Shown here: positions 5,509-26,479 of the stretch, piece by piece
Numbering within the stretch: position 1 is the stretch's first letter
Layout: each line of letters begins with the position of its first letter
Source: Zhenpiania hominis
GTDB lineage: Bacteria > Bacillota > Clostridia > Peptostreptococcales > Anaerovoracaceae
Direction of reading: 5' to 3'
DNA: 47,593 nt
Assembly: GCF_014333425.1 (NCBI RefSeq)
Contig: NZ_JACRYT010000027.1
Coordinates: 1-47,593, forward strand
Notes under the pieces: model-generated
Database searches by the model: none
Told to the model about the DNA's origin: nothing
The model's input: only the letters and a program-made list of their open reading frames with translations
Made by a program: the position numbers and the translations under genes

Positions 5509-5528
5509 CCCGCAGAGTAAATGAAGCT

Positions 5529-5557: not shown

Positions 5558-5582
5558 ATGAAATATTAGGAGGAAAACCACT

Positions 5583-6632: not shown

Positions 6633-6669
6633 GAAGGGCGATACCATACGATAAACGATAGACCGCTGC

Positions 6670-6697: not shown

Positions 6698-6738
6698 ATA
6701 ACGGCGGATCCCCGGACGGAAAGGAGGGCAGCCGGAGA

Positions 6739-7476: not shown

Positions 7477-7490
7477 GAGGAATGCGGAAC

Positions 7491-8352: not shown

Positions 8353-8562
8353 TTATTCATTTAAGAAGTAATCCATATCCAGAATATCTTCATCAGACAT
8401 TCGTGCTATCTCTTTAGAAGAGTAGCCAACCGGTGGATTCTTGATGTATTTGTCCCTTGCTTTTTGTGCATATTCCGATTCCGTCATGGCAACGCCATTC
8501 ACAACATAGGTAACGATCGATGTATGTTTGTCTTCCTTGTACCCATCATCAAAAAAAGTCAT
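8353..8562 (-). CDS. Small acidic protein of unknown function
   Basis: 69 residues. The start at 8562 is preceded on its strand by AGGAGGTATGAC, an excellent ribosome site, and a small terminator follows the stop, so this is very likely a real gene. The protein is soluble and acidic at its C-terminus (MSDEDILDMDYFLNE), with no signal peptide or membrane segment. I do not recognise the family. Its size and charge would suit an antitoxin or phage/transposon accessory protein, but no partner gene is visible. The IS at 8627 onward may have removed an upstream neighbour. Confidence 0.6.
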   Translation of the reverse strand: MTFFDDGYKEDKHTSIVTYVVNGVAMTESEYAQKARDKYIKNPPVGYSSKEIARMSDEDILDMDYFLNE

Positions 8563-8626
8563 GTCATACCTCCTGCAAGTCTAAAGACAGCCCTGACGCT
8601 AAAAATATTTTTCGCAAAAGAAACAC

Positions 8627-8717
8627 AAAAAAACCTCCCAATCCAGGGAAGTTGTGAGAAAATAGAATGGAACAGAAACCATTTTTTCGCAACAACCAAA
8701 AAGGAAGGAGGTTTTTT
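8627..8717 (+). promoter_or_regulatory. Leader hairpin masking the transposase ribosome site
   Basis: AAAAAACCTCC (8628-8638) pairs exactly with GGAGGTTTTTT (8707-8717), which contains the ribosome site of the ATG at 8720. Inside it, GTTGTGAGAAAA (8651-8662) pairs with TTTTTTCGCAAC (8682-8693) if G-U pairs are allowed. The structure should keep transposase translation low when transcription comes from outside. Confidence 0.6.
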
Positions 8718-9928: not shown

Positions 9929-9930
9929 GA
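8720..9930 (+). pseudogene. DDE transposase (IS4/ISNCY-like) with a frame break and truncated C-terminus
   Basis: The ATG at 8720 is placed correctly behind GGAGG, and its frame encodes MKGQRNHTRKE ... ARILKHFF before it fails at about 8900. The family sequence continues in the -1 frame from about 8813 (LLRQLPDPRHQSYITYP ... SMRKTSEEFN). Candidate catalytic acidic residues are seen in LIDGTQLY, LSADSLYA and the WKMENEGFNTQKRQGYN helix. The switch falls on CAT TTT TTC, which reads as a T TTT TTC heptamer, so either a one-base loss in the T run or programmed -1 frameshifting would explain it. The last residues (QIGHMIASWIF) run straight into foreign sequence, so the enzyme lacks its C-terminal end and is probably inactive. 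Confidence 0.8.
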
Positions 9931-11921: not shown

Positions 11922-11939
11922 GACTTGCCCTCCCTATTA

Positions 11940-12545
11940 AATCCGGCACACAAAAAATTCATTTTACAGTTCACTATATCACATCTGTTCCCAAAACACA
12001 AAGAATTTGTCGAAAAACCTCATATTTTGACCGAATAGCGGGAATCGGAAGCCCTCGCAGCCTCGGAGAAGCCGTCTCTTCGGAGCTGCCGCATGATCGG
12101 CCCCCCGGGATCTTTTTGTATTGGCGAAGGCTCCGGAATCTTTGCAGAAATTGCCTTGGCGGAAAATCGGCGCAGCCCCTTGCCCCTCCCCTTTTCCGAA
12201 CAGTATCTTTGGAAAGCTCTGCCGGCGGCGCTCTCAAGCTACCGGCGAATACAGGCATTGAGCGGAAAATCCCGGCACCCCCGGACATACCGAACAAGTC
12301 AGGCAGTCGGGACAAAGCAGGCAGGACAGGCAGAGCGAACAAACCTGTCAATCCCGGGATGTGCCCCGGCAAATCGGAAAAACTGCGAAAGCCGCGCAAA
12401 GCGGGCATAGCGGAGAAATCCGCTGTTCCCGGATTTGCCGAACAAATCAGGCAAACCGAACACGTTACGCAAAACAGACAGGACAACCCCGACAAAGTGA
12501 ACGGCGCAGAACCCGGGCATGCCGGGACGCGCCGCGCGGAAAACG
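11940..12545. other. Gene-free stretch with low-complexity repeats
   Basis: About 600 bases separate the sensor gene start from the 3' end of the LRR protein gene. Open frames exist on both strands, but they have no ribosome sites and read as short degenerate patterns (on the minus strand repeated LPGL/LFGMSG-like units). On the plus strand, words such as CGGCAAATC, CGAACAAATC and GGACAGGCAG recur with drift. I see no RNA gene or transposon end in it. Confidence 0.5.
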
Positions 12546-15188
12546 CTATCTTACTTTTATTTTCCGCGCTTTGCTGTATGCGCCGTAAATTTTAGTCTTT
12601 CCAACCTGCTTGTAGGCTCTGACCTTGCAGTAATACGTCTTTTTCCGTTTCAGTTTTTTAAAGGTCTTTGCGGTCGTTTTGTTTTTCCGCACAAAGACTG
12701 TCTTCTTGCCTTTTTTGAATTTCTTATTCCGGGCAATCGTCACCTGGTAGCCGGTCGCCTTTTTATCCCGCTTCCATCTTACCTGAAGGGTGCGCGCCTT
12801 TTTGGAGACCGCCTTGCGTGAAATGGCTTTCTTCGGCTTTACTGTGAGCGTAATCTTTTTCACCGCTCCTTTGTATTTGGAGGTTGCCGCCGCCCGCACC
12901 GTGATCGTCGTCCTTCCGGGGCCTTTCAGCGTAACCCTCCCCGCCGCGCTGACCGTCGCAACCTTTTTATTCCCCGATTGATAGGTCAGCTTTGTTTTCC
13001 CTCTCGCGTTCAGATAAAAGGATTTGTTTCCGTAGGTCTTTGTATATGCCTTTGCGCCGGAGATGGTCTGCGCCATGGCGGCTGCTGCCGGGTTTCCCTT
13101 TCCTTTCGGCGGCGGAATCAGCCCTGTGAGATCCGGCTTTTCTCCCGGTTTCAGAGAAACGACCGTCATGCTTTTCCATGTGTCGGAATCATAACCGGAG
13201 GCGTTTTCCGGTCTGTAGATTTTCGGAACGTTCCTCCCGAAAGGATCGCCGCTGATCGTCGGCGCGTCTCCGTTTAGAACGATCACTTTCAGCTCATCTG
13301 CGTTCAGGAACAGTTCGTCCTCCATGTAGTGAAAGTTTTCCCCAAATTCCAGCCAGGTCAGACCGTCTCCGCTAATAAAGGAGTTGGAAATCCGTTCCAC
13401 GTTTTTCATGGAAAGGGTGGATTCGGCGTAATCCATATCAAAAGACAGATGCCCCATCGTTCCCACATCGCCGATCGCCTTCGTCTTATTCAGGTCAACC
13501 GGGAACCCGTAACAACACGAGATTCGCAAAACGTTCAGAATTTCGTCCGGCAGGGTAAGACTGCTCATCATGCAGTAACGGAAGTAGTCGTCCCAGGAAA
13601 CGATCGCCTTTGGCCAGCCGCTGACGGAGAGGATTTGGTTAAAGGCAAACGCCTGAGCCCCCATATAGGTCAACTGCGAGCCTTCCGGAAAGACAATCCG
13701 AAGCCCGCCCGATTCGGAGGAGGTCCACATGATTTCTTCAAAGGCATAATCCCCGATATAGGTCAGGCTCTTTGGAATCGTTATGGTAAGGGTTCCCGTT
13801 CCGATTGATCCGGAAAAGGGTCGTCTCCCCAGATAAACAAGCGACGGGGGCAGGTCGCCCGCATGGGAAGCAGAAAGCCCCGCTTCGTCGCCGATATAGG
13901 TAACGCTGTCCGGCACTTTCTGCGGGATTTTCTCAAACCCGGTCAGCGAATTGGGGCCGATATACAAAAGACCTGCCGGAAAAGACGCCAGATTCGGAGC
14001 ATGGTATCCCAACTGGGATAAAATAACGTCGCCGTAAAAGGCTTCGCCCGCGATGCCCTTGGTGTCCGCTCTCAGACTTATGGTTTTGGGAAGTTTGCTC
14101 CGATCCGCCCATTTCTCATCGTCCTTTTCCATTTCAAAATTCCAGAGAAACGCTTTTCCAAGGTACAACGCCCCTTTCTTTTGCTTCGCCAGCCAGGGCG
14201 TGTCCTCGATGCTGTTTCGATGAACGATGTAGAGACTGTCCGGGAACGTAATATCTGCAAGCTCCGTGCAGCCTTCAAAGGCATACTCGCCGATTTCCTC
14301 CAATCCCTGCGGAAGAGAAATGGCAGGAAGCGTCTTGCACCAGTAGAACGCATTGTTTCCAATCCGCTTTAGACGGCTGTCGCCGCGAAACGTAACCTCG
14401 GTAAGATGGCCACATGAGGAAAACGCGTTGTCTCCGATTTCCGTTACGCTGGCGGGAAGAGAAACGGAAGTAACCCCGTACCCTCCATAGTAAAAGATTT
14501 CCTCCTCCACCCGCTGAACGCCGTCCGGAATCTCCACATGTCCGGACGTCTTCTCCCCGACAAAGTAACAGATCGTATCGTTAATAAAGATAAAGTCCTT
14601 TCCTTCCTCTCTTGCCCGGTTTACCTGCTCCTGTAGCCACGCGGTTCTCAGAAACGCGCCCTCTCCAATATCGGTAATCTCCCCGGGAAGGGAAAGGTTT
14701 TCCAGCCCGGAGTTAAAGAACGCCTTGTCTCCGATGCTTGTGACTGTAGAGGGGATATTGATCGTTTTCAGAGAGGCGCAGTTATAAAAGGCTCTGTCTC
14801 CGATGGTTTTGAGCCCCTCCGGAAGAACGACGGTTTCCAGTCCGCTGATGGAATAATCGTCCCGTACCGTTCCAAAAGCTCTCTCTCCGATATAAGTAAC
14901 CGTGTCCGGCACCTCAATATAAGCCACCGGATTGTCGTTCCTCTGCTTCAAAGACATATCCGCGATCCCTACCACCGTATATCCGTCCAGCGTTTCCGGG
15001 ATAATCAGCCGCTCGAGGCTTCCCTTGTAAGCGGTAATTTCAATCGTATTTTCCGTTACAAAGCGGTAGTCGAACTGCGCGCTGTCGTCCTGCCCGGAGT
15101 CCGTCGCCGCCGACGCTCCCGCAGGGAGCATGGTAAGCATCATGCAGAGCGCGATCAGAAGAGCCGCGCATTTTCGGGTTCTGTTCAT
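12546..15188 (-). CDS. Secreted BspA-like leucine-rich repeat protein with basic Fn3 C-terminus
   Basis: 880 residues, ribosome site AGGAGG before the ATG at 15188. A signal peptide (1-28, ending GASAA) is followed by a long array of BspA/LRR_5-type repeats (about 60-650; units such as IEVPDTVTYIGERAFG, LPEGLKTIGDRAFYNC and IPSTVTSIGDKAFFN). An Ig-like domain follows (about 690-785: AYTKTYGNKSFYLNA ... KVATVSAAGRVTLKGPG), then a Lys/Arg-rich Fn3 domain (about 795-880: LQVRWKRDKKATGYQ ... YYCKVRAYKQVGKTKIYGAYSKARKIKVR). There is no sortase signal, so the basic C-terminal domain may hold the protein to the wall. BspA-type repeats usually mediate adhesion. The terminal two domains are shared with the other secreted proteins in this window. 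Confidence 0.9.
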   Translation of the reverse strand: MNRTRKCAALLIALCMMLTMLPAGASAATDSGQDDSAQFDYRFVTENTIEITAYKGSLERLIIPETLDGYTVVGIADMSLKQRNDNPVAYIEVPDTVTYIGERAFGTVRDDYSISGLETVVLPEGLKTIGDRAFYNCASLKTINIPSTVTSIGDKAFFNSGLENLSLPGEITDIGEGAFLRTAWLQEQVNRAREEGKDFIFINDTICYFVGEKTSGHVEIPDGVQRVEEEIFYYGGYGVTSVSLPASVTEIGDNAFSSCGHLTEVTFRGDSRLKRIGNNAFYWCKTLPAISLPQGLEEIGEYAFEGCTELADITFPDSLYIVHRNSIEDTPWLAKQKKGALYLGKAFLWNFEMEKDDEKWADRSKLPKTISLRADTKGIAGEAFYGDVILSQLGYHAPNLASFPAGLLYIGPNSLTGFEKIPQKVPDSVTYIGDEAGLSASHAGDLPPSLVYLGRRPFSGSIGTGTLTITIPKSLTYIGDYAFEEIMWTSSESGGLRIVFPEGSQLTYMGAQAFAFNQILSVSGWPKAIVSWDDYFRYCMMSSLTLPDEILNVLRISCCYGFPVDLNKTKAIGDVGTMGHLSFDMDYAESTLSMKNVERISNSFISGDGLTWLEFGENFHYMEDELFLNADELKVIVLNGDAPTISGDPFGRNVPKIYRPENASGYDSDTWKSMTVVSLKPGEKPDLTGLIPPPKGKGNPAAAAMAQTISGAKAYTKTYGNKSFYLNARGKTKLTYQSGNKKVATVSAAGRVTLKGPGRTTITVRAAATSKYKGAVKKITLTVKPKKAISRKAVSKKARTLQVRWKRDKKATGYQVTIARNKKFKKGKKTVFVRKNKTTAKTFKKLKRKKTYYCKVRAYKQVGKTKIYGAYSKARKIKVR

Positions 15189-15213
15189 ACAAATACCTCC
15201 TGTTCTTGCGCAA

Positions 15214-15246
15214 ATAGGATACCGCCGGTAAAAGGCAGTATCCTAT
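15214..15246. repeat. Inverted repeat between two surface protein genes
   Basis: ATAGGATAC (15214-15222) and GTATCCTAT (15238-15246) form a perfect 9-bp stem with GCC/GGC inside the loop, just upstream of the ribosome site of the LRR protein gene (minus strand). No T run follows in either direction, so an operator or mRNA-structure role is more likely than termination. Confidence 0.4.
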
Positions 15247-15278
15247 TCGTCTAAGGGCTCTGTTTGAAAGAAAAATGG

Positions 15279-16031
15279 TTATTGTAATCTGAATACTTCG
15301 GCATCCGCGTATCTGCCGGAGAACAGAGACATGATATACACGCTTTTGCTCGTCTTCGATGTGGTAAACATCACGGTTGCGGCATATTCGTACCGGTTGT
15401 TGTCAAAATATTGGAAGTCCCCGCCAATCGCCGTGATATGGATATTCTTTGTTTGCCTTTTCGGCACGATCGAAGTATAGACATTCGTCCGTCCATAGGC
15501 GTCGGATAAGGACGCGGTGTAGTTCTTCACAATCTTCCCTGTCGCGCGGTCAATGACAAACAGCTTCGAGCAGGCGGGACCCGGCATAAAGTACATGCTG
15601 TTTCTCGGAGACGGATTCTTGATCGAGATTTTTACAACCTTGCTGCCCAGCCCGTTGGCGTGCATTACGATTTTTCCGCTCGCTTTGTAAATCCGTTTTA
15701 CTGCGCTGAACTTGCCTTTTTTTCCGTTCTTTCTGACTGCGCGCACTTTGTAGTAGTTCAGCCCCTTCGCCTTTTTATCGTTGTAAGTTCTCTTCTTTGT
15801 CGTGGCGATTCTCTTGTACTTGCCCTTCAGCTTTGTGGCGCGGTACACCTGGTATTTGGCAGCCCGCTTCACTTTCTTCCATTTTACCACAACTCTGTTG
15901 TTGGACTGCTCAACCTTGAGTCCCTTTACCTTTCCGACGCTCGCGGCATCGGCTGTAATCGGAGTGGCAAACGCCACTGTCAACGCCAGCGTCAGCGCCA
16001 GAGCTACAGACATAATCTTTTTTGTCTTCAT
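15279..16031 (-). CDS. Secreted Fn3-domain protein, unknown function
   Basis: 250 residues, ribosome site AAAGGAG before the ATG at 16031. The signal peptide (1-30) ends ADAAS. A very basic Fn3-like domain follows at once (about 34-115: VKGLKVEQSNNRVVVKWKK ... LNYYKVRAVRKNGKKGKFSAVKRIY). The remaining 130 residues form an unrecognised, probably beta-rich domain (IVMHANGLGSKVVKISIKN ... ATVMFTTSKTSKSVYIM). In contrast to its neighbours, the Fn3 module is N-terminal here. It is tandem with three similar genes on the minus strand and is probably co-expressed with them. The role is unknown; cell-envelope location is inferred from the signal peptide and basic module. Confidence 0.82.
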   Translation of the reverse strand: MKTKKIMSVALALTLALTVAFATPITADAASVGKVKGLKVEQSNNRVVVKWKKVKRAAKYQVYRATKLKGKYKRIATTKKRTYNDKKAKGLNYYKVRAVRKNGKKGKFSAVKRIYKASGKIVMHANGLGSKVVKISIKNPSPRNSMYFMPGPACSKLFVIDRATGKIVKNYTASLSDAYGRTNVYTSIVPKRQTKNIHITAIGGDFQYFDNNRYEYAATVMFTTSKTSKSVYIMSLFSGRYADAEVFRLQ

Positions 16032-16065
16032 CTTTTCGCTCCTTTCATCTCCTTTGTTTTGTTTT

Positions 16066-16812
16066 TTAACGAACCTTTACTTTTTTTACAACACTGTAAC
16101 TTCCATACGCTTTTGTTTTGCCGGATTTGTTGTAAGCTCTTACTTTTACATAATACGTTGTTCTCTTTTTCAGCCTGCTGATCGTCTTCCGGGTTGTCTT
16201 GTTTCTCGTAATCGTAACGTTTTTCTTGCCTTTGGTGAACTTTTTGTTTCTCGCGTAAGTGATCTGATAGCCTGCGGCCTTTCTGTCCCGTTTCCATCTT
16301 ACCGTCATCTTGCGTTTTCCTTTTTTCACCTTTACGTTGGTTACGCGCTTCGGCTTTTTTACCGCCTTCGCTTTGCTGCCGCTTTTCTTTGCCGTATACT
16401 TGTAGAGCTGGCTGTGTCCGCTGACTGCGCTGTCGCCCCACCATACGCCCTCCGGATCGGCAATCGCCTGTACGCGGAAGGAGTACAGCCCGGTTCCGTG
16501 TTCTTCGATCAGATCCGTGAAATCGCATTGATTGGTTCCTTTTTTCGCATATCCCTCCGCCAGGGTGGAGATGGATTTTCCGTTTTTATAAAGGAACGCC
16601 ACGCACCACATTTCCGAACCGGCGGAGGCTCCGGTTGACCAGGTTGCCACAGCTTTTCCTCCCGTCAGCTTCCACTTGAGATTGGTCGGAGTGGAAAGCT
16701 GCTGCGCCGAATAGGCGAAGGACGATGCCGGTATGGCGAGCAGTCCCATACAGATTGCCAGAAGAATGGCAATGCCTTTTTTTCTCATATCGCGCTTTTC
16801 CTTTCTCTTCAT
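16066..16812 (-). CDS. Secreted two-Fn3-domain protein, unknown function
   Basis: 248 residues from the ATG at 16812. A second ATG at 16788 (MRKKGIAIL) is also preceded by AAGGA and would give a more usual signal peptide. The signal peptide ends SSFAYS. A first Fn3-like domain covers about 38-135 (TPTNLKWKLTGGKAVATWS ... YSFRVQAIADPEG). The basic C-terminal Fn3 domain covers about 160-248 (MTVRWKRDRKAAGYQITYARNKKF ... VKKVKVR) and is nearly identical in plan to those of the flanking genes. It has no enzymatic motif and no sortase signal. It probably sits in the envelope and binds something through the N-terminal domain. Confidence 0.85.
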   Translation of the reverse strand: MKRKEKRDMRKKGIAILLAICMGLLAIPASSFAYSAQQLSTPTNLKWKLTGGKAVATWSTGASAGSEMWCVAFLYKNGKSISTLAEGYAKKGTNQCDFTDLIEEHGTGLYSFRVQAIADPEGVWWGDSAVSGHSQLYKYTAKKSGSKAKAVKKPKRVTNVKVKKGKRKMTVRWKRDRKAAGYQITYARNKKFTKGKKNVTITRNKTTRKTISRLKKRTTYYVKVRAYNKSGKTKAYGSYSVVKKVKVR

Positions 16813-16914
16813 TTTATGCTCTTTCCTTTGGTTTTGTTTCTTTTCGCTGCTTTGGTCTGATTGGCTCGTTTCGCTTCGTCAGGTTCGGGTTCTTTGCTCC
16901 GTCCTGTTTTCGCC

Positions 16915-18618
16915 TTATCTTACCCTGCATTTTCTTGCTTTGCTGTAGGAACCGTAGATCTTCGTCTTTCCGACTTTCTTAAAGGCTCTTACCTTTACAT
17001 AATAGGTTTTCTTCTTCAGCTTTTTAATCGTTCTCTTTGTGGTTTTGTTCTTGCCTATGGTTACGTTTTTCTTGCCTTTGGTGAACTTTTTGTTCCTGGC
17101 GTAGGTGATCTGGTAGCCTGTGGCTTTTTTGTCCCGCTTCCAGCTTACCGTCATCTTGCGTTTTCCGGTTTTCGCCTTTGTTCCGATCACCTTTTTGGGT
17201 TTTACGGTGATGGTGATATTCTTTTTCGCCGCGTTATAAGCTCCTGTTGCCGCCGCGCTGATCGTAATCGTCGCTCTTCCCGGCGCTTTGAGGGTTACTC
17301 TGCCGGAGGAGCTTACTGCGGCCACTTTGGAGTTGGAGGAACGGTAGGTCAGCTTGCCTCCTCCGTTCGCCTTCGCGTTCAGGTTGAACGCTTTGTTTCC
17401 GTAAGTCTTCGTGTAGGAACGGGCGGTGATGGTCTGCGCTTTTTTCACAGGCGCCGCGCCCGGCTGAACGGTCAGAACCGCAGTCTTGCTGCCGCCGCTG
17501 AACCACCGGGACTGTGGAACAGTAACCGTAATGTTCGTTGTTCCCGCTCCTTTCAGGGTGATCTTGCCGGAGCTGTCGATCACGGCGACTTTCGTGTTGT
17601 CGGATTTGTAGGTCGGGTTGTTTCCGTTTTTAATCTGCTCGTTCAGATAAAACGGCGCATCTCCAAGACGTTTGGTGATCCTGGAATCAAGCTGAATGAC
17701 GGTCGCGCTCTGAGTATCAAAGGACTCCTCTATATTCGCGCCGATAGTCCCCGCGCTGTCCCACAGATCCGTCTTTGTCAGATCCAGGTGGATTACGGGG
17801 CGCGCGCCGTAATCCGTTACCCTCGCATCTTCGCCAATCCCGGCATTATAGCCTCCGTCATACCCATTTGTAATTTTAACCGACCATGCGCTGTAGCTCT
17901 TATTGCCGCGGCCGCGAAGCCAATAGCCCTCCACCGGGTTCAGCGGCGCGAATCTGTTCGCATACGCCGTCGCAGTCGTGTCTCTGGTCTTTACCGGACC
18001 CCAAATTGGTCCCCCTCCGGGAGCGAATCCGTAATCCGGGTTCTCGATTTCTTCCTTGGACAGCAGGTACACCTTGTCGTTGGTAGTCGGACCGCCCGGA
18101 AAATGCTGGGTCTCCCCTTCCGTCGGGATAATGGTTACGTCCTTGTTTCTGACAGTGGCGGTTTTCAGCGCCGCCTGCTCTGCCGGAGTAAAGGCAATAT
18201 CCATAAAGTTGTCTGCGGAATAATCGATACCCGAAGCGTTTTCATTCTTCCCGTATCCGTTGAGCCAGCTCCGGATCGTCGTCTTTGCCCAGACCTCCCC
18301 TCCTTTTATGTTGTACGCCATTCCCTCGGTCAGAACTTGGTCCGCCAGCAGTATGGCTTCGGTCTTTTGGGCGTTTACGTTCAGAACTCTCCATTTAATC
18401 CGCGTTTTATCCGCGCCTCCCGAGGTCTGCGGATAAGTTCCAAAATACACGCAGTCCCAGGTCGTCCTCAGACCGTCTATGCGCGGATTCGACAGATTGG
18501 TGGCGGACGCCGCCTCCGCTGTTCCGATGTTTGCCGGAACCAGCCAGGCGATCATGGTCAGCAACAGAGCTGCCGTTATCACCCGAATCGATGCTTTCGC
18601 TTCTCGAATTGCTCTCAT
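16915..18618 (-). CDS. Secreted DUF6273/Ig-like/Fn3 surface protein
   Basis: 567 residues, ribosome site GAGAGGAG before the ATG at 18618. A signal peptide (1-35) is followed by a DUF6273-like module (about 48-290: DCVYFGTYPQ ... IKWRVLNVN ... SWLNGYG ... YWLRGRG ... ARPVIHLDL). This module is common in clostridial surface proteins and looks like a carbohydrate- or ligand-facing fold. Two Ig-like segments follow (about 300-385 and 395-470, the second with AYTKTYGNKAFNLNAK and SSSGRVTLKAPGR shared with the LRR protein), then the basic Fn3 C-terminus (about 478-567). It is probably the first gene of the four-gene minus-strand run 18618-12546, since a TATAAT-like box lies upstream on its strand. 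Confidence 0.87.
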   Translation of the reverse strand: MRAIREAKASIRVITAALLLTMIAWLVPANIGTAEAASATNLSNPRIDGLRTTWDCVYFGTYPQTSGGADKTRIKWRVLNVNAQKTEAILLADQVLTEGMAYNIKGGEVWAKTTIRSWLNGYGKNENASGIDYSADNFMDIAFTPAEQAALKTATVRNKDVTIIPTEGETQHFPGGPTTNDKVYLLSKEEIENPDYGFAPGGGPIWGPVKTRDTTATAYANRFAPLNPVEGYWLRGRGNKSYSAWSVKITNGYDGGYNAGIGEDARVTDYGARPVIHLDLTKTDLWDSAGTIGANIEESFDTQSATVIQLDSRITKRLGDAPFYLNEQIKNGNNPTYKSDNTKVAVIDSSGKITLKGAGTTNITVTVPQSRWFSGGSKTAVLTVQPGAAPVKKAQTITARSYTKTYGNKAFNLNAKANGGGKLTYRSSNSKVAAVSSSGRVTLKAPGRATITISAAATGAYNAAKKNITITVKPKKVIGTKAKTGKRKMTVSWKRDKKATGYQITYARNKKFTKGKKNVTIGKNKTTKRTIKKLKKKTYYVKVRAFKKVGKTKIYGSYSKARKCRVR

Positions 18619-18788
18619 TGATTACTCACTCCTCTCAAAAGCTTTCATACAAAATCATAATTTCCTTACATTTTTATTATAAACTGTGATAAAATTTATA
18701 AAATGGAATTTCCGCAACAGGTATTGCCATTTACGGAAATCGCGCGCCGACACATGTGGGGACTGCGGCAGAAAGGGGTTAAAAGATT
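18619..18788. promoter_or_regulatory. Divergent promoter region between surface-protein run and GH20 remnant
   Basis: This AT-rich gap separates two divergent genes. On the minus strand a TATAAT sequence (18676-18681 region) could serve the four surface protein genes. Nearer the plus-strand gene, ATTTCCG and CGGAAAT form an inverted repeat (about 18712-18741) that may be an operator or small hairpin. Confidence 0.4.
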
Positions 18789-19457
18789 ATGAAACTACAC
18801 ATAAAACAAATACTGGTCATCGGGATTTCCCTCCTGCTCCTTGCTGGTCTCTTCCCGGAACCGCTCCGCGCTCTGACGACGCCCCAAAACGGGATCAATC
18901 TGGACTGCGCGCGAAGGTATTATTCGGTAAAGGAGATCAAGAAATATATCCGCCTGCTGTCCGAACGCGAACCGCTTACATAAACACCATCTCCCGGTAC
19001 ATGGAGCGCCGGGGATTTACGGTTCGCGTTTATAACGATCTGTTTCGGAAAAAGAATATAAAGCAGTTTAATCCCAATCTGGAAATCGCCTATTGGAGTT
19101 ATGACGGCGATACGGAAAACAAACGGGTTTCCAAGGCGAACAGAACGTACCGCGCCGGCGCGGCGGATCTGCAAAAGGCGGGATTTCGACTGCTCAATTA
19201 CAATTCCCATTACCTGTATTTCGTTCCATCGAGAAAAAACTGCACCGGGGAAAACCGGCGTTACATGGTGCGGGATTTAAAGAAAAACTGGGATTTGTGC
19301 GTCTGGGATTCGGATCGGGGACGGAAACTTTCCAGCAAAGATGGCGTAATCGGCTCCGCGATCAGCGTGTGGGGGGAAGGATTCCGCCGGAGTGTCCGCC
19401 GCAAAGATTTACCGCCAAGCTGCGCCGCTTTACCGGGCAATGACGCAGAAGCTATAG
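18789..19457 (+). pseudogene. Decayed GH20 beta-N-acetylhexosaminidase gene with internal deletion
   Basis: Three pieces of one GH20-like protein lie in three frames. The piece 18789-18980 gives a signal peptide and GINLDCARRYYSVKEIKKYI, the family's first strand. From about 18980 in another frame comes YINTISRYMERRGFTVRVYND ... LEIAYWSYDGDTEN ... LLNYNSHYLYFVP ... SVWG, the C-terminal part of the barrel. After an extra G in the run 19371-19376 the frame changes again to KDSAGVSAAKIYRQAAPLYRAM and stops at 19457. The central barrel with the catalytic Asp-Glu pair is missing, so a deletion of perhaps 200 codons joins piece one to piece two. The intact ancestor would have been secreted and would have removed terminal GlcNAc/GalNAc from glycans. 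This copy cannot be active. Confidence 0.8.
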
Positions 19458-19582
19458 GAAGTTCAAGGAGTAGAGAGGACGCAGGAGAGATAAGCGACAC
19501 CGACGTAAGAGATATATAAAGGAAGAAAAAAACAGAAGTAAAGCAAACGATATAAATGACGCAAGCGATATAGGAGATCATC

Positions 19583-21316
19583 ATGAATTTTGCAAAAAAG
19601 CTAAATGAATATATTGAACTGCTGGATTGTACGGCAAAGGATCTGGCGGAGACTTCGGGGCTGTCTGCGGCAACTCTCAGCCGCTACCGGACGGGGAGCC
19701 GTCTGCCTGATTCGGAACATCTGGAAATATTGTCCGCCGGAATTGAGCGGCTCGCAAAAGAAAGAGGCGATCAGAGGATCAAAAAAGAGCAGGTGATGTC
19801 TGCTCTTAATTCCTGCATTCTCTCCAAAAGCGAAAATTTTGAGTTGCTGCCTGCCAATCTGGATTCTTTTCTTACCCTACTGAATATCAATGCCCGGGAG
19901 CTAGCAAATTTCGTAAATTACGATGCGTCTTCGATTTCCCGTATCCGCAAGGGGAAACGGCTTCCCGGCGATCCGAAAATGTTCGCGTCTCAGGTGGCGC
20001 AGTTCGTTTCCCTGCGGTATAACGATCCGGAGGATCGGAACCTCCTGGCGAATTTGTTTTCCTGCACGCCGGAGGAGCTATCTGTCCCGAAGGTTTATGC
20101 GGAAAAGATCCTGCAATACCTTCTCTACAACAGCCCCGCCGATTCTGCCCCTGTGCTTTCGTTTCTGTCAGCCATCGATGAGTTTGATCTGAACGAATAC
20201 ATGCGCAGTCTCCATTTTGATACGCTGAAAGTTCCGTCTGTCCCGTTTCAGCTTCCTATTTCCAGGGATTATTACGGGCTGGAGCAGATGCACCAGGGCG
20301 AATATGATTTTTTCAAAGCCGTCATTTTATCGAAAAGCAAGGATCCTTTGATTATGAACAGCGATATGCCGGTTGCCGATCTGACGGCTCTTCCCGGATA
20401 TATGAAAAAGAATATGCAGGGTATGGCGATGGCTCTGAAAAAGGGACTTCACGTGAATATGATCCATCATGTGGATCGTTCTTTTGAGGAAGTGTTCATG
20501 GGGCTTACCGCCTGGATTCCCCTTTATATGACGGGGCTGGTTTCGCCTTTTTATCTGAAAGGGTACCGCAATTCGATCTTTGGGCACCTTTTGTTTTCCG
20601 CCGGTACTGTGGCGTTATCCGGGGAATGTGTGATGGATTCTCACGAGGAGGGAAGGTATCATCTGACCGGCAACCGACAGGAGGTTTCTTATTATCGGAA
20701 AAGAGCCGAGGCGCTACTGAAAAAGGCGTATCCTCTGATGAATATTTATCAGGAAACGGATCGAAAGGCGCTGTCTGTTTTTCTGCTCGCGGATCTGAAA
20801 ACAAGCGGAACCCGAAGTTCCGTTCTTTCTTCTCCGCCGCTTTATACGATGCCGGAGGAAATGCTGCGCGCTTTTTTGCAGGCAAGATCCATCTCTTCGG
20901 ACAGACAGGAGGAAATCCTGGGCTTTGCCGCGCATCAGCGACAGTTCATACAGGAAATTCTTTCCCACAGCAAAATCCACGATGCGGTCCCGGAACTTTC
21001 TCCGGAGGAAATTTCCGACCATCCGCCGCTGTTCCCGATTTCCGCGATCTTTTACGAAAACAGCCTGCCCTATACCCCGGAGGAATATCAGGCGCATGTG
21101 CGGGCTTCTGCGGAATTTGCCCGAAGGCAGCCGAATTATTCGTTTTGCACGCAGAACGCCTGGTCGTTTCGCAACATCAACATTGTTCTTCACGCGGGAA
21201 AATGGGCTATGATCTCAAAGAACAAATCGCCTGCCGCGCACTTTATCGTCCATCACCCAAAACTGCTCGGGGCGATTGAAAATATGCTTCTTCGCAAAAA
21301 TTCGGGGGGGGGGTGA
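19583..21316 (+). CDS. Large regulator with two helix-turn-helix regions
   Basis: 577 residues, preceded by TAGGAGATCATC. An XRE-like helix-turn-helix lies at about 6-43 (CTAKDLAETSGLSAATLSRYRTG) and a second at about 88-135 (INARELANFVNYDASSISRIRKGKRLPG). The remaining 440 residues are soluble, probably helical, with no enzyme motif that I recognise, and may sense a ligand or partner. No DNA target is evident. It follows the GH20 remnant after a 125-base AT-rich gap and could have controlled the surface genes of the island. The frame ends in a tract of ten G (21304-21313): loss of one G would replace the SGGG end with a long hydrophobic tail running to 21656, gain of one would end it as VK. 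Confidence 0.75.
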   Translation: MNFAKKLNEYIELLDCTAKDLAETSGLSAATLSRYRTGSRLPDSEHLEILSAGIERLAKERGDQRIKKEQVMSALNSCILSKSENFELLPANLDSFLTLLNINARELANFVNYDASSISRIRKGKRLPGDPKMFASQVAQFVSLRYNDPEDRNLLANLFSCTPEELSVPKVYAEKILQYLLYNSPADSAPVLSFLSAIDEFDLNEYMRSLHFDTLKVPSVPFQLPISRDYYGLEQMHQGEYDFFKAVILSKSKDPLIMNSDMPVADLTALPGYMKKNMQGMAMALKKGLHVNMIHHVDRSFEEVFMGLTAWIPLYMTGLVSPFYLKGYRNSIFGHLLFSAGTVALSGECVMDSHEEGRYHLTGNRQEVSYYRKRAEALLKKAYPLMNIYQETDRKALSVFLLADLKTSGTRSSVLSSPPLYTMPEEMLRAFLQARSISSDRQEEILGFAAHQRQFIQEILSHSKIHDAVPELSPEEISDHPPLFPISAIFYENSLPYTPEEYQAHVRASAEFARRQPNYSFCTQNAWSFRNINIVLHAGKWAMISKNKSPAAHFIVHHPKLLGAIENMLLRKNSGGG

Positions 21317-21796
21317 AATGATAAGCGTCCCTGCCTCGTTTTTTATTTTCGCTCTGTTGCTGCTGCGCCTTCCCCCTTTTCATGCCCGGTTCCGTTTCTT
21401 TCTCGCTTTCATATCCGTTTCTGTGTCTTCTTGTTTTGTTCATATTCCTTTCGTCTTTTTCACCTCCGATTCTTCCGCCGCCTTTTCTTTTGTCTGCGCA
21501 CAGTCGAGAAAGGCGCGTCCCGCGTTCCGGATTCATTCGGCGTTTCCGACTTTCCCATCGGTTCCGTTTCATAGAGAACGCTATATTCCATCGGATTTTC
21601 CAGGGAAGAGTAATTTCACTTGGACGGAGCGGTTTTACCGGAAATCCTGTTTTTAGCGGTTCTCAGATCTGCGAGGCGAAATGGACAAAGTTCCCGGTTT
21701 CTGCGCTTACCGACAATCTCTTCCCTGCTCATCGGCTGCGGGACGGAAGGGCGATCGGCTTGGAATCGCTTTTGTTTTGAGCAATGGGGATAATAA
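21317..21796. other. Gene-free stretch after the regulator
   Basis: Nearly 500 bases with a strongly pyrimidine-rich plus strand. Frames on both strands are open but have no ribosome sites and biased, low-complexity translations. The plus frame read through from the G10 tract is hydrophobic (SFFIFALLLLRLPPF) and ends at 21656. I see no RNA gene. Confidence 0.5.
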
Positions 21797-21846
21797 GGGG
21801 CTGTCGCATTAAGAAAAATATCACTTAATGCGACAGCCCCTTTTTT
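21797..21846. terminator. 17-bp hairpin with T run; terminator or IS-end-like repeat
   Basis: Bases 21797-21813 pair perfectly with 21824-21840 around a 10-base loop, followed by six T. It would end transcripts coming from the regulator. The arm starting GGGGCTGTCGCATTA also resembles terminal repeats of some IS1182-type elements, so it may be a solo or palindromic IS remnant. Confidence 0.6.
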
Positions 21847-21857
21847 GTAAAAAAGAA

Positions 21858-22032
21858 AACCACGGGCTATGCCTGTGGTTCAAAAGAGCTTCCAGCGGTG
21901 AGGAAAAAAAGACCTCCAATTGTTACAATAGAACTGGTCTGCCAACCAGAGAAGTAACAAAGGAGGTATCCAAAAATGGATAAAAATACTTTAGCACATA
22001 CGAAATGGAATTGCAAATATCATATCGTGTTT
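21858..22032 (+). mobile_element. IS200-like left end with 5' fragment of tnpA
   Basis: A subterminal hairpin (AACCAC 21858-21863 with GTGGTT 21875-21880, extended by GGC/GCC) and a structured leader precede an ATG at 21976 whose first 19 codons (MDKNTLAHTKWNCKYHIVF) are the typical start of IS200/IS605 TnpA (Y1 transposase). The frame is cut exactly after the codon TTT at 22030-22032 by the palindromic IS remnant. The catalytic HUH and Tyr regions are gone, so it is inert. Confidence 0.88.
21911..21967 (+). promoter_or_regulatory. RBS-masking hairpin in the IS200 leader
   Basis: ACCTCC (21912-21917) and TTGTTAC (21920-21926) pair with GTAACAA (21954-21960) and GGAGGT (21962-21967). The second arm is the ribosome site of tnpA (ATG 21976). 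IS200 elements are known to limit transposase translation by such a structure, and this copy keeps it although the gene is broken. Confidence 0.75.
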
Positions 22033-22101
22033 GGCGGTGTCAAGTTGTTGTGGAGTTTTTGGTTGACAGATCCAAAAACTCCACAACAACTTGACACCGC
22101 C
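22033..22101. mobile_element. Collapsed IS: left and right ends back to back
   Basis: Bases 22033-22073 are the reverse complement of the IS end at 258-298, and 22074-22101 repeat its outer 28 bases in direct orientation. The result is a 28-bp perfect inverted repeat around 13 bases (22061-22073). It sits inside IS200 tnpA on the left, while the right flank is not IS200 sequence, so internal deletion and loss of flanking DNA both occurred. In RNA it would form a very stable hairpin just upstream of tatD. Confidence 0.8.
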
Positions 22102-22176
22102 CAGCGCGACCTTCGTATTGCCAATCCTTAAAAGATGGAGTATGATGAAAGCAAAAGAAAATACGGAGGAAAAATC

Positions 22177-22998
22177 ATGCTCTTTGATTCACATGCGCAT
22201 ATTAATAACGAATCCTTTGACGAGGAAGAACGGGAGGCTCTGATCGCGAAAATTGAGGCTTCCAAAGTGGACTATGTCATGGACATCGGTTTTAATCCGG
22301 AAAGCTCGGAGCTTGCGGTAAAACACGCGAACCGCCTGTCCTGGTGCTACGCGGCGGTAGGCTGCCATCCCCACGATACCAAGGATATGGATGAAGAAAA
22401 ACTGGACAGACTGAGAGAATTGGCGCAGGAAGAAAAAGTACGGGCCATCGGGGAAATCGGTCTGGATTTTTACTATGACTACTCAGACCGGGACGCTCAG
22501 AGATACTGGTTCCGCAGACAGATTCAGCTTGCCAATGAACAGAAGATGCCTATTGTGATCCACGCCAGGGAAGCGGATCAGGAAGTAATGGATATCCTCA
22601 GAGAAGAGGGTGCTTTTTCAGAAGAACGGAAAAGCTGGTTTCCGCAGAGATACGATGGGAGTGGAGACGCCCGGGTGCTGCTTCACTGTTTCTCCGGCAG
22701 CAGAGAACTGGGACAGCAGTATGTAAAGCTGGGCGCGACTATTTCCGTGGCAGGTCCGGTGACCTATAAAAACAATAAAAAGACGGTCGCAGTCGTAGAA
22801 GCGCTGCCCATTGAAGTTCTGCTGGTGGAAACGGATTCTCCTTATCTGACTCCGGTGCCGTTTCGGGGAAAGCGAAATATTCCTCCCTATGTAGAATATA
22901 CCGCGGCAAAAGTCGCGGAAATTAAAGGTCTGACTTTGGAAGAAACCGCCGCCCGGACAAAGGAAAACGCGATGCGCTTTTTTGATGTCCGCGAATAG
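22177..22998 (+). CDS. tatD: TatD-family metal-dependent hydrolase (DNase)
   Basis: 273 residues from the ATG at 22177, chosen because GGAGGA lies just upstream and the protein begins MLFDSHAHIN as in the family; an earlier in-frame ATG (22135) would add an unusual tail. Metal ligands are visible: H6/H8 in SHAHIN, Glu in GEIGLDF, His in VIHAREA and LLHCFSG, and Asp in VETDSPYL. The family are TIM-barrel exonucleases active on 3' ends and linked to DNA repair. The length is normal. In many Firmicutes the gene follows metG; here the upstream side is replaced by IS debris, so its native promoter is probably lost. Confidence 0.93.
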   Translation: MLFDSHAHINNESFDEEEREALIAKIEASKVDYVMDIGFNPESSELAVKHANRLSWCYAAVGCHPHDTKDMDEEKLDRLRELAQEEKVRAIGEIGLDFYYDYSDRDAQRYWFRRQIQLANEQKMPIVIHAREADQEVMDILREEGAFSEERKSWFPQRYDGSGDARVLLHCFSGSRELGQQYVKLGATISVAGPVTYKNNKKTVAVVEALPIEVLLVETDSPYLTPVPFRGKRNIPPYVEYTAAKVAEIKGLTLEETAARTKENAMRFFDVRE

Positions 22999-23037
22999 GC
23001 GGATTTTGTCACAAAAAAAAGGACTTCTGATCCGCGG

Positions 23038-23072
23038 TTTCGACAAAGGAACTTTCCGGAAAGGTCTATAAT
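23038..23072 (+). promoter_or_regulatory. spoIIE promoter with a Spo0A box
   Basis: TTTCGACAAA (23038-23047) is, on the other strand, TTTGTCGAAA, a match to the Spo0A binding box. A perfect TATAAT lies at 23067-23072, 19 bases further on. spoIIE promoters of sporulating Bacillota are activated by Spo0A~P from boxes placed near the -35 position, so the layout fits. The spoIIE start is 71 bases downstream. Confidence 0.75.
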
Positions 23073-23143
23073 AGTCCCAGGCTTGTACAAGAAATCTGTT
23101 GCAATGTTATGACGACGGCGCGCGATGGAGAAAGGGGGAGAGC

Positions 23144-24973
23144 ATGGAACTTACATCAAAACGAAGGATTTCCGGAAAAGAAAAACGGAGGAGAAAAGAA
23201 CGGGGTAAGGGAACAGAAAGAGGGGAACTGGGAATTTCACAGGCTGTGGTTCTTGCCGCCGCCTGTTTTTTTATCAGCAGAGCCTGCTTTATGGGACAGA
23301 TGTTTCCGGCAGGTATCAGTCTGCTTACGGTACTTCTTTCCAGAAACCCGCTCAATTTATATTTGCTTCCCTTTCTATTGCTTGGTGTTGGCAGCTATTA
23401 TAAAAGTGGAATTCCGATTGTCGGGGATTTGGCCGCGCTTTGCGGAGGCGCGCTGGTATTTTTATGCGCGGGAAGACTTTCTCTCAGGACATGGCAAAAA
23501 GCTTTGATCGCGGGAAGCATTGTTGTGATCGCAAACAGCGTTTATTATATTGCCGGAGGCATGCTTTATCGGCTTTCTATGCAGCAGCTCGTACTGGAAG
23601 GTCTGCTTACAGCTGCTTTATGCGGAGTTTTTGACAGAAGCTGTGCGTGCGGGATGTTGAGGACAGAATCCGCGGAAAATAATCAGAGAGAAGGAACTGA
23701 GGCGGAGGGGATTTTTTCTTTTTGCTCTGGCTTTATGTTAGCGGCTGTGGGAAGCGGGATCCCATGGCTGCTGTTTCCTTTGGCCATGGCTGCTGTTCTT
23801 TTTGCGGGATATTTCTTTGGCGTTTCAGGCGGGATTCTTTCCGCTGTTTCTTGCAGCCTTGTTCTGTTGCTGTGCAATGGGGAGTTCCTTGCGGTTTTTC
23901 TTTTGTTGGCGGGAGGCGTTACAGCGGGATTTTTGCAGAGGCAGAGCCGGATTTTGACATCGCTGTGCTTTTGCGCGGCTGTTCTCGGGATGGGACTTCC
24001 TGACCTTTCCGCCAATATGTCGGTGCCCTTTTATGCTCCGGTCGCTGCGGCAGCGCTGCTGGTTCTAATGCCGGTAAGATGGATGAACAGATTTGAATCC
24101 GCGCTTGGCGCTCTGCTGAATGGGGAAGGGTATGGAGAAAGACAAACGGCGATAAAAACGGCAGAGTATCTGAAAAAGGTCAGAAAAAATTTTGATGATC
24201 TTTCCGCGCTGTTTGCCGGACAGGACAATCATCGACAGCTCCTGTCCTATGAGTTTCGAGCCATATCACGAATTTTAGATCATACGCGGCAAGCCGCGGA
24301 TATAGCACCTGTAAAGACAGCGGTACGGTACCGGTCAGAGACTGCCTGGGCGGGATATGCGGGGGAACAAGGCGTATCCGGAGACAGCGTTTTATGGGAG
24401 GAACTGCCGGATGGAAATTTTGCCATTGTTTTAAGCGATGGGATGGGAAAAGGGAGAACCGCCGCGGCAGAAAGCAGCCTGGCGGTGACAACCGTGATTC
24501 AGCTTTTGAAAGCCGGTCTGGACGCGGAGCTGGTTTTAAAGATTTTGAATTCAATCCTTCTGTTGAACGCGGAAAAAGAGGTCTTTTCTACCATCGATTT
24601 AGGGATTCTCAATCAAAAAACCGGAAAAATGAAATTCTATAAAATCGGAGCGGCGCCGACCTTTATCAAGCGGCGAAACAAGCAGGTGGAAAGCCTCAAT
24701 GTTTCCGCGCTCCCCATGGGAATTGTAGAAGGAATCCACATTGATTACGTGGAAACCAGTCTCAGCCCGGGAGATCAGGTTATCTTAATTTCAGACGGCG
24801 TGACGGACTCTAAGCGGGAAGACGCGGAAATGAAATGGCTGACGGAGACCATCATGGGAATCCGCTCCAAAGATCCACAGACCATGTGCGATCTGATTAT
24901 GAACCGGGCGGTAGAAAATTATGGACTGAGGGAAAAAGATGATTTAACCGTGGCGACGGTAAGGATGGAATAA
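23144..24973 (+). CDS. spoIIE: Stage II sporulation protein E, membrane PP2C-type phosphatase
   Basis: 609 residues from the ATG at 23144 (AAGGGGGAG upstream), preferred to the earlier frame start at 23099. A basic N-terminus is followed by about ten hydrophobic helices (residues 30-320), a linker, and a PP2C phosphatase domain (about 400-609) with ELPDGNFAIVLSDGMGKG, STIDLGILN, GAAPTFIKRR and LISDGVTD carrying the metal-binding Asp residues. SpoIIE dephosphorylates the anti-anti-sigma factor SpoIIAA to release sigma F in the forespore and acts at the polar septum. It is shorter than the Bacillus subtilis protein, mainly in the central region. Its presence implies spore formation or recent ancestry of it. 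Order spoIIE-tilS-ftsH is conserved in Firmicutes. Confidence 0.93.
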   Translation: MELTSKRRISGKEKRRRKERGKGTERGELGISQAVVLAAACFFISRACFMGQMFPAGISLLTVLLSRNPLNLYLLPFLLLGVGSYYKSGIPIVGDLAALCGGALVFLCAGRLSLRTWQKALIAGSIVVIANSVYYIAGGMLYRLSMQQLVLEGLLTAALCGVFDRSCACGMLRTESAENNQREGTEAEGIFSFCSGFMLAAVGSGIPWLLFPLAMAAVLFAGYFFGVSGGILSAVSCSLVLLLCNGEFLAVFLLLAGGVTAGFLQRQSRILTSLCFCAAVLGMGLPDLSANMSVPFYAPVAAAALLVLMPVRWMNRFESALGALLNGEGYGERQTAIKTAEYLKKVRKNFDDLSALFAGQDNHRQLLSYEFRAISRILDHTRQAADIAPVKTAVRYRSETAWAGYAGEQGVSGDSVLWEELPDGNFAIVLSDGMGKGRTAAAESSLAVTTVIQLLKAGLDAELVLKILNSILLLNAEKEVFSTIDLGILNQKTGKMKFYKIGAAPTFIKRRNKQVESLNVSALPMGIVEGIHIDYVETSLSPGDQVILISDGVTDSKREDAEMKWLTETIMGIRSKDPQTMCDLIMNRAVENYGLREKDDLTVATVRME

Positions 24974-25321
24974 AAAAGAAAGGGCTGCCCTGTGCTGCGC
25001 TTTCCGCAAGTCCGGACGGGAAATATGCAGCCAATCCCCATTTTTGCTCCTGAGGCTCACGCGCTGTTAGAAACAAAACGGCATTTGCACAATTTGTTTA
25101 CAAAAACAACCGGATTCCAGAGGACAAAAAGACGCAAATTCCAAAAAAATCCCTGATAAAGCCTGTTTTTGTTTTTTCGTCGCCGGAACCCGTTGAAAAA
25201 ATTGTAACAAATCGAAAAAATAGCCTTTTGTTACACTCATTCGAAGTCATCGGAGGATCCGGACCTCTTTTTCAGGAAAATGGACACATTGCCAGCGCCG
25301 TGGCGGCAGTGAGGATGGAGT
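24974..25321. other. Gap after spoIIE with an inverted repeat element
   Basis: This region has no convincing gene. It holds a TGTAACAAA/TTTGTTACA inverted repeat (25203-25235) within a stretch that partly resembles 37711-37845. Near its end the text GTGGCGGCAGTGAGGATGGAGTAA (25304-25322 region) resembles the spoIIE 3' end (VATVRME stop), which may be a small duplication. Confidence 0.5.
25203..25235. repeat. GTAACAAA-type inverted repeat, copy 1
   Basis: TGTAACAAA (25203-25211) and TTTGTTACA (25227-25235) form perfect 9-base arms around 15 bases. A related element with the same left-arm context (AACAAAT.CGAAAAA) is at 37815-37845. It could be an operator for a dimeric regulator or part of a dispersed intergenic repeat. 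Confidence 0.55.
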
Positions 25322-25373
25322 AAAAAAAGCGGCGTTCCTGTGCTGACATGCCCCTGGTGAACGCCGCTTTTTT
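25322..25373. terminator. Bidirectional terminator between converging transcripts
   Basis: An A run (25322-25328), GCGGCGTTC (25329-25337), a 21-base loop, GAACGCCGC (25359-25367) and a T run (25368-25373) make a symmetrical hairpin. It ends plus-strand spoIIE transcripts and minus-strand transcripts of the surface protein gene at 25382. Confidence 0.88.
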
Positions 25374-25381
25374 CAAAGACT

Positions 25382-26479
25382 TTATTTAACTCGTACTTTT
25401 TTAACTTTGCTGTACGCACCGTAAAGCTTTTTACTTCCGGATTTTTTATAAGCTCTTACTTTTACATAATAGGTTTTCTTTGCTTTTAATTTTTTGATCG
25501 TCTTTTTGGTGGTTTTATTTTTGGCAATTGTGATGTTCTTTTTGCCTTTTTTAAATTTTTTGTTTTGTGCATAAGTAATCTGATAGCCGGTGGCTTTTGT
25601 GTTGCGTTTCCATCTGACTGTCATTTTTTTCTTTCCCGCTTTTACTTTTAAGCCTGTAACTTTTGACGGTTTTACCACCTTGGCTACATTTGCCGGAACT
25701 GTAGTTTTATTGATATTTACATATGTAAATCCATTTGCGCGGGCGTAGGCGGCAGAAGCAGGATTTTCAGAAAATCCATAAATCTTAAAGCCGCTTACGC
25801 GCTGATAGCTTTTTACACCGGAAGTACTCGTATAGAGGTCATATCCCAGGCAGTGCGCTCCGAAAGATTTTACAGAGTCCGGAACAACCGCGGCTTTAAC
25901 GGTGCCGGAAAGCATTGCGTCTTTGGCAAGCGCTGTCACAGTATAGGTTCCATCTGGAATACCATACCAGTCATCCACGATTACTTTATCCGGAACCGCA
26001 TAGATGCTGCTGTCTCCCTGGACATACCCATCCATAACTTTGGCGGTCTTGTTGGAATAGAGCCAGATGCCATCTGTACTTTCAAGGAATCCGATACATA
26101 TCGTAGTACTGTAGGCATAATTGTCGTTGGAATATGCGTAAATTTCAATCGCACCCTCCGCTTTTGCGGTCAATATGCCGTTACTGTCGATAGATGCTAC
26201 GTTTGCAGTTTCATCATTATATTGCTCGATTTCCCAAGTCCATCCGCTCTGAGAAACCTTGATTGCCTCATCATCATAATTATAACCGACAACATCAAGA
26301 TCTAACTTCTGTCCAATCGCGATGGAGTTGGGGAGAGAATTCCCATTGACCAGCCGGATGCGGTAGTAATCAATTTCAGACTGTCCTTCTTCCCCGGTTT
26401 CTGCATGGGCCATTGTCGGAATGGCAAAGACGCTGATTGCCATCATCAGGGCAATTAAAATACTTAGCTTTCGTTTCAT
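25382..26479 (-). CDS. Secreted Ig-like/Fn3 surface protein
   Basis: 365 residues, ribosome site AAGGAGG before the ATG at 26479. The signal peptide (1-26) ends TMAHA. An Ig-like (Big_2-type) segment lies at about 45-120 (WTWEIEQYNDETANVASIDSNG). A middle region (about 125-265) has BspA-like features (VPDSVKSFGAHCLGYD ... AYARANGFTYVNI). The basic Fn3 C-terminus (about 275-365: MTVRWKRNTKATGYQITYAQNKKF ... KVKKVRVK) is the module shared with the island proteins. It sits in reverse orientation between spoIIE and tilS, which are neighbours in most Firmicutes, so it is probably an insertion into a core gene string. It has its own promoter and terminator. Base composition is lower in G+C than the island copies. 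Confidence 0.87.
   Translation of the reverse strand: MKRKLSILIALMMAISVFAIPTMAHAETGEEGQSEIDYYRIRLVNGNSLPNSIAIGQKLDLDVVGYNYDDEAIKVSQSGWTWEIEQYNDETANVASIDSNGILTAKAEGAIEIYAYSNDNYAYSTTICIGFLESTDGIWLYSNKTAKVMDGYVQGDSSIYAVPDKVIVDDWYGIPDGTYTVTALAKDAMLSGTVKAAVVPDSVKSFGAHCLGYDLYTSTSGVKSYQRVSGFKIYGFSENPASAAYARANGFTYVNINKTTVPANVAKVVKPSKVTGLKVKAGKKKMTVRWKRNTKATGYQITYAQNKKFKKGKKNITIAKNKTTKKTIKKLKAKKTYYVKVRAYKKSGSKKLYGAYSKVKKVRVK

Follow-up and report, generated by a model that had tools for sequence, protein, structure and literature searches.

What is gained when several secreted proteins of one bacterium, unrelated along most of their length, finish in the same strongly basic domain? The question is raised by a 47,593-nt stretch of Zhenpiania hominis DNA (contig NZ_JACRYT010000027.1, positions 1 to 47,593; hereafter the window, meaning the whole stretch analysed), in which one Fn3 domain of ~95 residues forms the C-terminal end of four proteins encoded on the minus strand. 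Comparison of this module across Clostridia suggests that the extremely basic end of many unrelated secreted proteins probably sticks them to the negatively charged polymers of their own wall.

The four window proteins are all exported. The longest (12546-15188, 880 aa) is an LRR protein (BspA-LRR) in which a Pfam scan identifies LRR_5 and Big_2, with the module at 12549-12845. DUF6273 and Big_2 precede the module (16918-17205) in the protein at 16915-18618 (567 aa), and a Fn3-like part with a Tissue_fac match precedes it (16069-16353) in the protein at 16066-16812 (248 aa). The fourth protein (25382-26479, 365 aa) ends in the module at 25385-25675, and its N-terminal part has no Pfam family above cut-off in the same scan. 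Pairwise BLASTP of the last 110 residues of each protein (composition-adjusted, in both search directions) gave identities of 53-72% over the domain with E values of 9e-15 to 6e-27, and all four domains pass the Pfam fn3 gathering score of 25 (26.9, 43.0, 25.9, and 40.0 bits). The net charge of the last 95 residues is +35 to +38, with a Lys+Arg fraction of 0.38-0.41 and an isoelectric point of 10.9-11.65, and that of the remainder of each protein is -16 to +15. A sequence-only reading of the window had already assigned these four proteins a common C-terminal domain, as identity, charge and fn3 scores now confirm, and the conserved words it listed recur with variation (RWKRDKKATGYQ, RWKRDRKAAGYQ, SWKRDKKATGYQ, and RWKRNTKATGYQ). 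It was right that the N-terminal parts are wholly different; its Ig-like label for that of 25382-26479 was not upheld. A related N-terminal domain had also been proposed for a fifth minus-strand protein (15279-16031). A basic Fn3-like domain does stand there, straight after the signal peptide and not at the C-terminus (approximately 15681-15944), as a distant relative and not close kin of the other four (best match E 0.02; no Pfam model above cut-off). This fifth protein is similar to one of the small secreted proteins of genome G001, a relative.

How general is this arrangement? With the domain of 16915-18618 as query, 263 matches were obtained among 5.8 billion proteins, and analysis of the best 120 placed the module within 15 residues of the C-terminus in 114, the six non-terminal exceptions being P0084, P0089, P0108, P0109, P0110, and P0115. 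A second search, with 16066-16812 as query, yielded 35 further proteins, 33 of which carry the module within 15 residues of the end. A crude hydrophobicity test found signal peptides in 109 of the best 120, and starts may be wrongly called in some of the remainder. Going by precomputed Pfam accessions, passengers include DUF6273, LRR_5, transglutaminase-like, CAP, PPC, subtilase, C11/C1 peptidase, and GH16. Such recurrence on diverse exported passengers is characteristic of non-covalent cell-wall attachment domains as a functional class. Stretches around those module matches that were listed for four genomes (G001, G012, G016, and G044) were also read, giving 85 proteins, of which four are open at the end of a stretch. 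The module lies within 10 residues of the end in 75 of them (27 of 31, 25 of 31, 14 of 14, and 9 of 9, respectively), the crude test detects a signal peptide in 77, and usually 0-1 residues follow its last strand. The expectation that the module is C-terminal in exported proteins therefore holds, and an occurrence mainly in cytoplasmic proteins or at internal positions was looked for and is not what was found.

A scan of species genomes confirmed at least 214 relatives. The 80 loci kept belong to Clostridia of many labels, including Lachnospiraceae, plus Stoquefichus and two Eggerthella-group contigs, and many are of gut or rumen origin, going by their titles. The module is consequently not restricted to Family XIII, where the sequence-only reading had proposed to look for it. 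At E <= 1e-6, each of eleven genomes reached through these loci holds between 1 and 51 matches, counted as domain copies and not as proteins. Two of the loci (L007 and L057) come from a metagenome-assembled genome titled “Bacteroides sp.” (JAMPEQ01); because the titles of the remaining loci all name Gram-positive groups, its title or binning is probably wrong. No curated NCBIfam family was found for the module, weak scattered matches apart. A phage or plasmid origin was considered and is without support, as tblastn with 25382-26479 gave no match at E 1e-5 in 50,697 phage and 72,556 plasmid records.

By structure prediction the module is built on the fibronectin type III fold. An AlphaFold2 model of the 16066-16812 module (pLDDT 97.3) has as its top PDB matches the Fn3 domains of animal proteins, monobodies and redesigned Fn3 proteins (TMq 0.62-0.83 for the 50 listed). 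Assignment to PF00041 follows from this model, from the four window domains and from 54 of 56 diverged members that match generic fn3 at E <= 0.01. Lys or Arg makes up at least 70% of each of 17 columns across these 56 members, and acidic residues are scarce, reaching no more than 16% in any column. In the predicted fold, the strongest Lys/Arg positions (70, 72, 75, 93, and 95, the last residue) fall on strands F and G or just past them. The charge is concentrated at the terminus. In none of the 14 proteins with tandem Fn3 domains is any upstream copy as basic as the terminal one (sign test p = 6e-5), and in each of the 72 terminal-module proteins exceeding 300 residues basicity peaks in the final 95-residue window, whose median charge is +29.5 vs -3 for other windows. 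The final residue is Lys or Arg in 71 of 75 terminal-module proteins.

If the module is an anchor, are other anchors present in the same genomes? Two sets of relatives were compared. The first was drawn around G001, the Anaerovoracaceae genome with Anaerovorax odorimutans locus L001, and comprises 79 of its relatives, 13 of which carry the module at E <= 1e-8; the second comprises 98 relatives of G002 (the genome of Robinsoniella locus L014; Lachnospiraceae), with three or more module copies in 13 genomes and any copy number in 20. Some genomes in these comparisons are incomplete (no rpoB match in 9 of 79 and 9 of 98), and the Fisher tests ignore kinship. SLH occurs in 50 and CWB2 in 8 genomes of the first set. 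SLH was found in 0 of 13 module genomes vs 50 of 66 others (Fisher p = 2.6e-7) and, in the second set with three or more copies of each required, in 0 of 13 vs 42 of 85 (p = 4.7e-4). One first-set genome, G063, has CWB2 together with a single SLH match, and nine have none of module, SLH and CWB2. On an RpoB tree two CWB2 genomes, G031 and G023, are placed next to two that carry the module, G052 and G055, with support of 91 and 86, short of the 95 mark, and this placement suggests anchor switches. From these gene distributions, the module seems to replace multi-copy non-covalent anchors, namely SLH and, without significance, CWB2. None of the accessions of SLH, CWB2, WxL, LysM and choline-binding anchors (PF00395, PF04122, PF13731, PF01476, and PF01473) was seen, by eye, in the precomputed Pfam column of the best 120 of 263 matches or in the five window proteins; P0089, one of the non-terminal matches, has the SH3 accession PF08239.

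The teichoic-acid polymerase family PF04464 shows the opposite distribution. Strong matches (E < 1e-30) occur in 12 of 13 module genomes vs 7 of 66 others in the first set (p = 1.2e-8), and counting any match leaves 12 of 13 vs 15 of 66 (p = 3.5e-6). Among first-set genomes free of SLH the figures are 12 of 13 vs 6 of 16 (p = 0.006). The second set gives 11 of 13 vs 23 of 85 for three or more module copies (p = 1.1e-4), 11 of 13 vs 16 of 47 within the first 60 genomes of the list, a cut chosen by the analyst (p = 0.0016), and 15 of 20 vs 19 of 78 for any copy number. The PF04464 locus of G001 encodes a D-ribitol-5-phosphate cytidylyltransferase (367 bits, cut-off 166), along with a TarL-like polymerase fusion and a TagH-like ATPase that both score under their cut-offs. 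Within ~10 kb lie genes for two Fn3 proteins, a subtilase bearing three copies at its C-terminus and a polysaccharide deacetylase bearing one at its N-terminus. The cytidylyltransferase also exceeds its cut-off in G053 (316 bits) and barely in G016 (172.5), where ispD fits equally well.

How much of this reflects common descent? RpoB trees were obtained for 69 of 79 first-set genomes, with Pagel tests run on 66 rows after exclusion of three long-branch rows, and for 60 of 98 second-set genomes, including 10 of the 13 with three or more copies, with one long-branch row excluded from the Pagel tests. Dependence is supported in the first set for TagF (p = 6e-4) and SLH (p = 0.0018). Changes are more scattered on the second tree (9-13), and directions agree. 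Several observations weigh against an anchor that reads teichoic acid and displaces SLH. The first-set module genomes occupy one region of the RpoB tree, with at least 5 changes; independent-pairs tests are not significant, the first set holding just 5 such pairs; and none of the Pagel tests on the second set reaches significance (p = 0.27, 0.18, and 0.056). Kinship accounts for part of the association of the module with the polymerase and SLH, and a tree-aware model backs the link in the first set and not in the second. The absence of CWB2 from first-set module genomes is not significant (0 of 13 vs 8 of 66, p = 0.34), nor is that of SLH within the first 60 genomes of the second list (0 of 13 vs 6 of 47, p = 0.32). 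Some SLH occurs in 5 of the 20 second-set genomes with any module copy, none having three or more of both. The module is present without a strong PF04464 match in G032 of the first set (2 copies) and in G103 (15 copies), G128 (4), and G099, G126, and G138 (1-2) of the second, and it is internal or N-terminal in 10 of the 85 proteins read in four genomes. Finally, the basic wall-binding region of Lactobacillus brevis SlpA binds something other than teichoic acid, according to the available part of the source (PMC2571106).

On balance we consider it rather probable that the module holds proteins non-covalently to an anionic polymer of the wall, for which a polyol-phosphate teichoic acid is the likeliest candidate. 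Its bearers would be exported by Sec via their signal peptides, the C-terminal module coming out last. Its Lys/Arg coat, in which the most conserved basic positions (70, 72, 75, 93, and the last residue) may take the leading part, would then bind the wall polymer electrostatically, and this polymer would most likely be polyol-phosphate teichoic acid from TagB/TagF/TarL-type polymerases. In this way the differing N-terminal parts (LRR, DUF6273, proteases, transglutaminase-like, CAP, and PPC) would be shown on the surface, and the job of the module in these genomes would be that of SLH or CWB2 modules in relatives. A larger proposal is offered tentatively: that this is a third large non-covalent display system of Clostridia besides SLH and CWB2, in which a lysine-coated C-terminal Fn3 reads polyol-phosphate teichoic acid, serves dozens of passengers per genome, has displaced SLH in lineages gaining teichoic-acid polymerases and, in one relative, also presents a gene family that is constant at its ends and variable between them. 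Where a source name is given among the best 120 of 263 matches, it is “fibronectin type III domain-containing,” “Ig-like domain-containing,” or “hypothetical” and is silent on location. If the module does anchor to teichoic acid, a large part of the surface proteins of many Clostridia would be readable from genomes, the choice among SLH, CWB2 and the module would be a readable sign of the wall polymer, and the module could provide a small surface-display tag for organisms with few tools.

Need the polyanion be the producer's own? Basic Fn3 domains of fibronectin bind heparin, and a charge this high would be expected to bind DNA as well. Together with the gut or rumen origin of many loci, this would suit a module that binds external polyanions, such as host glycosaminoglycans, mucin or extracellular DNA, and that acts in adhesion or biofilm formation instead of anchoring to the wall. 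However, a single terminal copy borne by proteases, glycosidases and LRR proteins alike better suits a common anchor than an adhesin, and an external ligand would give no reason for the module to go with teichoic-acid polymerase genes of the producer itself and to avoid SLH; we regard this alternative as unlikely. A C-terminal sorting or export signal for a dedicated machine, perhaps processed, in the manner of the sorting domains of other secretion systems, is somewhat harder still to credit. The abrupt ending of the proteins at the last strand and their final Lys or Arg would fit it, and PF18962, presumably the Por-secretion tail family, is precomputed for 3 of the best 120 of 263 matches. 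The type IX secretion system belongs to Bacteroidota. No transmembrane tail or sortase-type motif was seen after the module in the 85 proteins of the four genomes, and 10 of them carry it elsewhere than at the end. The genome comparison, which covered four families (sortase, CWB2, SLH, and PF04464), is weak evidence on this point; sortase was found in all 13 module-bearing relatives of G001 vs 44 of 66 module-free ones (Fisher p = 0.015).

Least credible is a plain Fn3 spacer that owes its many lysines to the composition of the lineage and whose shared end was spread by 3'-end recombination without a specific role, for although Fn3 is a common spacer, nearly all members match generic fn3 and genome G012 holds eight genes with near-identical ends and diverged middles, the upstream copies are less basic throughout the tandem proteins, the last 95 residues are invariably the most basic, and acidic residues remain rare across diverged members.

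The eight G012 proteins are near-identical over their first 46 residues (28 pairs, 93-100%) and have C-terminal Fn3 modules that are 99-100% identical, with middles of 33-51% identity; because near-identical ends flank diverged middles, their 3' ends may recombine. They are encoded at L142 (6059-8467, minus; 10616-13060, plus; 15639-18053, minus), L144 (576-3149, minus; 5292-7715, plus), L145 (1339-3894, minus), L146 (3487-5862, minus), and L147 (565-2988, plus). The genes thus lie in both orientations, next to AAA-ATPase_like/PDDEXK_9 genes in the two cases checked, and a Phage_integrase gene is found at L142 7-825. Variable surface antigens are one possible interpretation of this sequence pattern.

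Does the module stand in for LPXTG anchors? The sequence-only reading had proposed a wall-binding terminus, perhaps to anionic wall polymers, that replaces them. Its C-terminal place on exported proteins stood, and a role at the wall or an anionic polymer is still the best reading. Replacement of LPXTG was rejected, because sortase is found throughout: in the window, in all 11 module-bearing genomes reached through the kept loci and in the 13 module-bearing relatives of G001. No LPXTG-like motif was found in the last 60 residues of any of the best 120 of 263 matches or of the 85 proteins from four genomes. The window sortase (6739-7476, plus; PF04203, 35.9 bits, cut-off 26.6) belongs to a pilus-like island on the plus strand (288-8132). 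This begins with a large DUF7601 protein (288-4358), which ends a few residues past its last DUF7601 match with no sorting signal seen, and continues with a signal peptidase (4858-5508) and a pilin-like protein (5583-6632, plus) with DUF7601, DUF5979 and an FctA match just under cut-off, which ends in NVDTG, a hydrophobic stretch and a KKR tail. Beyond the sortase lies an FctA-type pilin-like protein (7482-8132, plus), with FctA over cut-off and no sorting tail seen. In G001 (L112 7398-10214) and G012 (C1:44561-45991) a sortase gene adjoins that of a small secreted protein whose basic Fn3 domain is N-terminal, and a module match lies beside a sortase in G017 (C23:298-1446). The window protein at 15279-16031 has the same N-terminal-Fn3 architecture but does not adjoin the window sortase.

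Other window genes complete the picture. A DDE transposase gene (8464-9930) comes after the pilus-like island. The minus-strand protein at 9891-11921 is of dCache/GGDEF/EAL type, its dCache match below cut-off; its EAL match covers positions 2-139 of the 236 in the profile and, because it stops early, the protein may be truncated. An open reading frame beside the gene at 16915 (18686-19519, plus) has a GH20 match of 19.1 bits (cut-off 22.3) that may be a fragment or chance.

How does the module compare with known systems? No description of a basic C-terminal Fn3 wall module was found in open-licence PMC literature, as searched with a few terms through the titles and the beginnings of abstracts that were listed. 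Fn3 is not among the wall-attachment domains tabulated in the available part of a 2018 review (PMC5817068), and contact of an N-terminal Fn3 with peptidoglycan in Bacillus anthracis BA0330 is offered as speculation in the accessible text of its report (PMC4505593). The module shares fold and sequence family with Pfam fn3 (PF00041), but neither terminal position, charge nor anchoring enters into the definition of that generic family. Like sortase substrates, the module proteins have a C-terminal determinant on many passengers; LPXTG anchoring, however, is covalent and needs a motif, a hydrophobic stretch and sortase, and the motif is lacking here. With SLH and CWB2 the module shares multi-copy, non-covalent use on many passengers per genome, although these are different families and both are absent from the 13 first-set module genomes. 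The review's available part places SLH and CWB2 at wall polymers in a figure legend, and a table in it lists peptidoglycan as the SLH ligand (PMC5817068). In Listeria, retention of InlB and Ami by GW modules (SH3-8) depends on wall teichoic acid, with stress laid by that paper on the sugars of teichoic acid (PMC7238011). Non-covalent retention would be common to both systems, and teichoic acid is the probable partner of the Fn3 module; GW modules are of SH3 type, and no PF13457 appears in the Pfam column of the best 120 of 263 matches. A further likeness is to the S-layer proteins SA and CbsA of Lactobacillus acidophilus and L. crispatus, whose basic C-terminal region binds teichoic acids according to the available text (PMC2571106). 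As described there, that region is likewise conserved, positively charged and C-terminal to variable N-terminal parts. The likeness is one of description; the module is one ~95-residue domain of Fn3 fold on many unrelated passengers per genome, and SA and CbsA are S-layer proteins. By analogy, S-layer basic regions and GW modules may be taken as precedents that work alike, in manner of retention and not as families to which the module is assigned.

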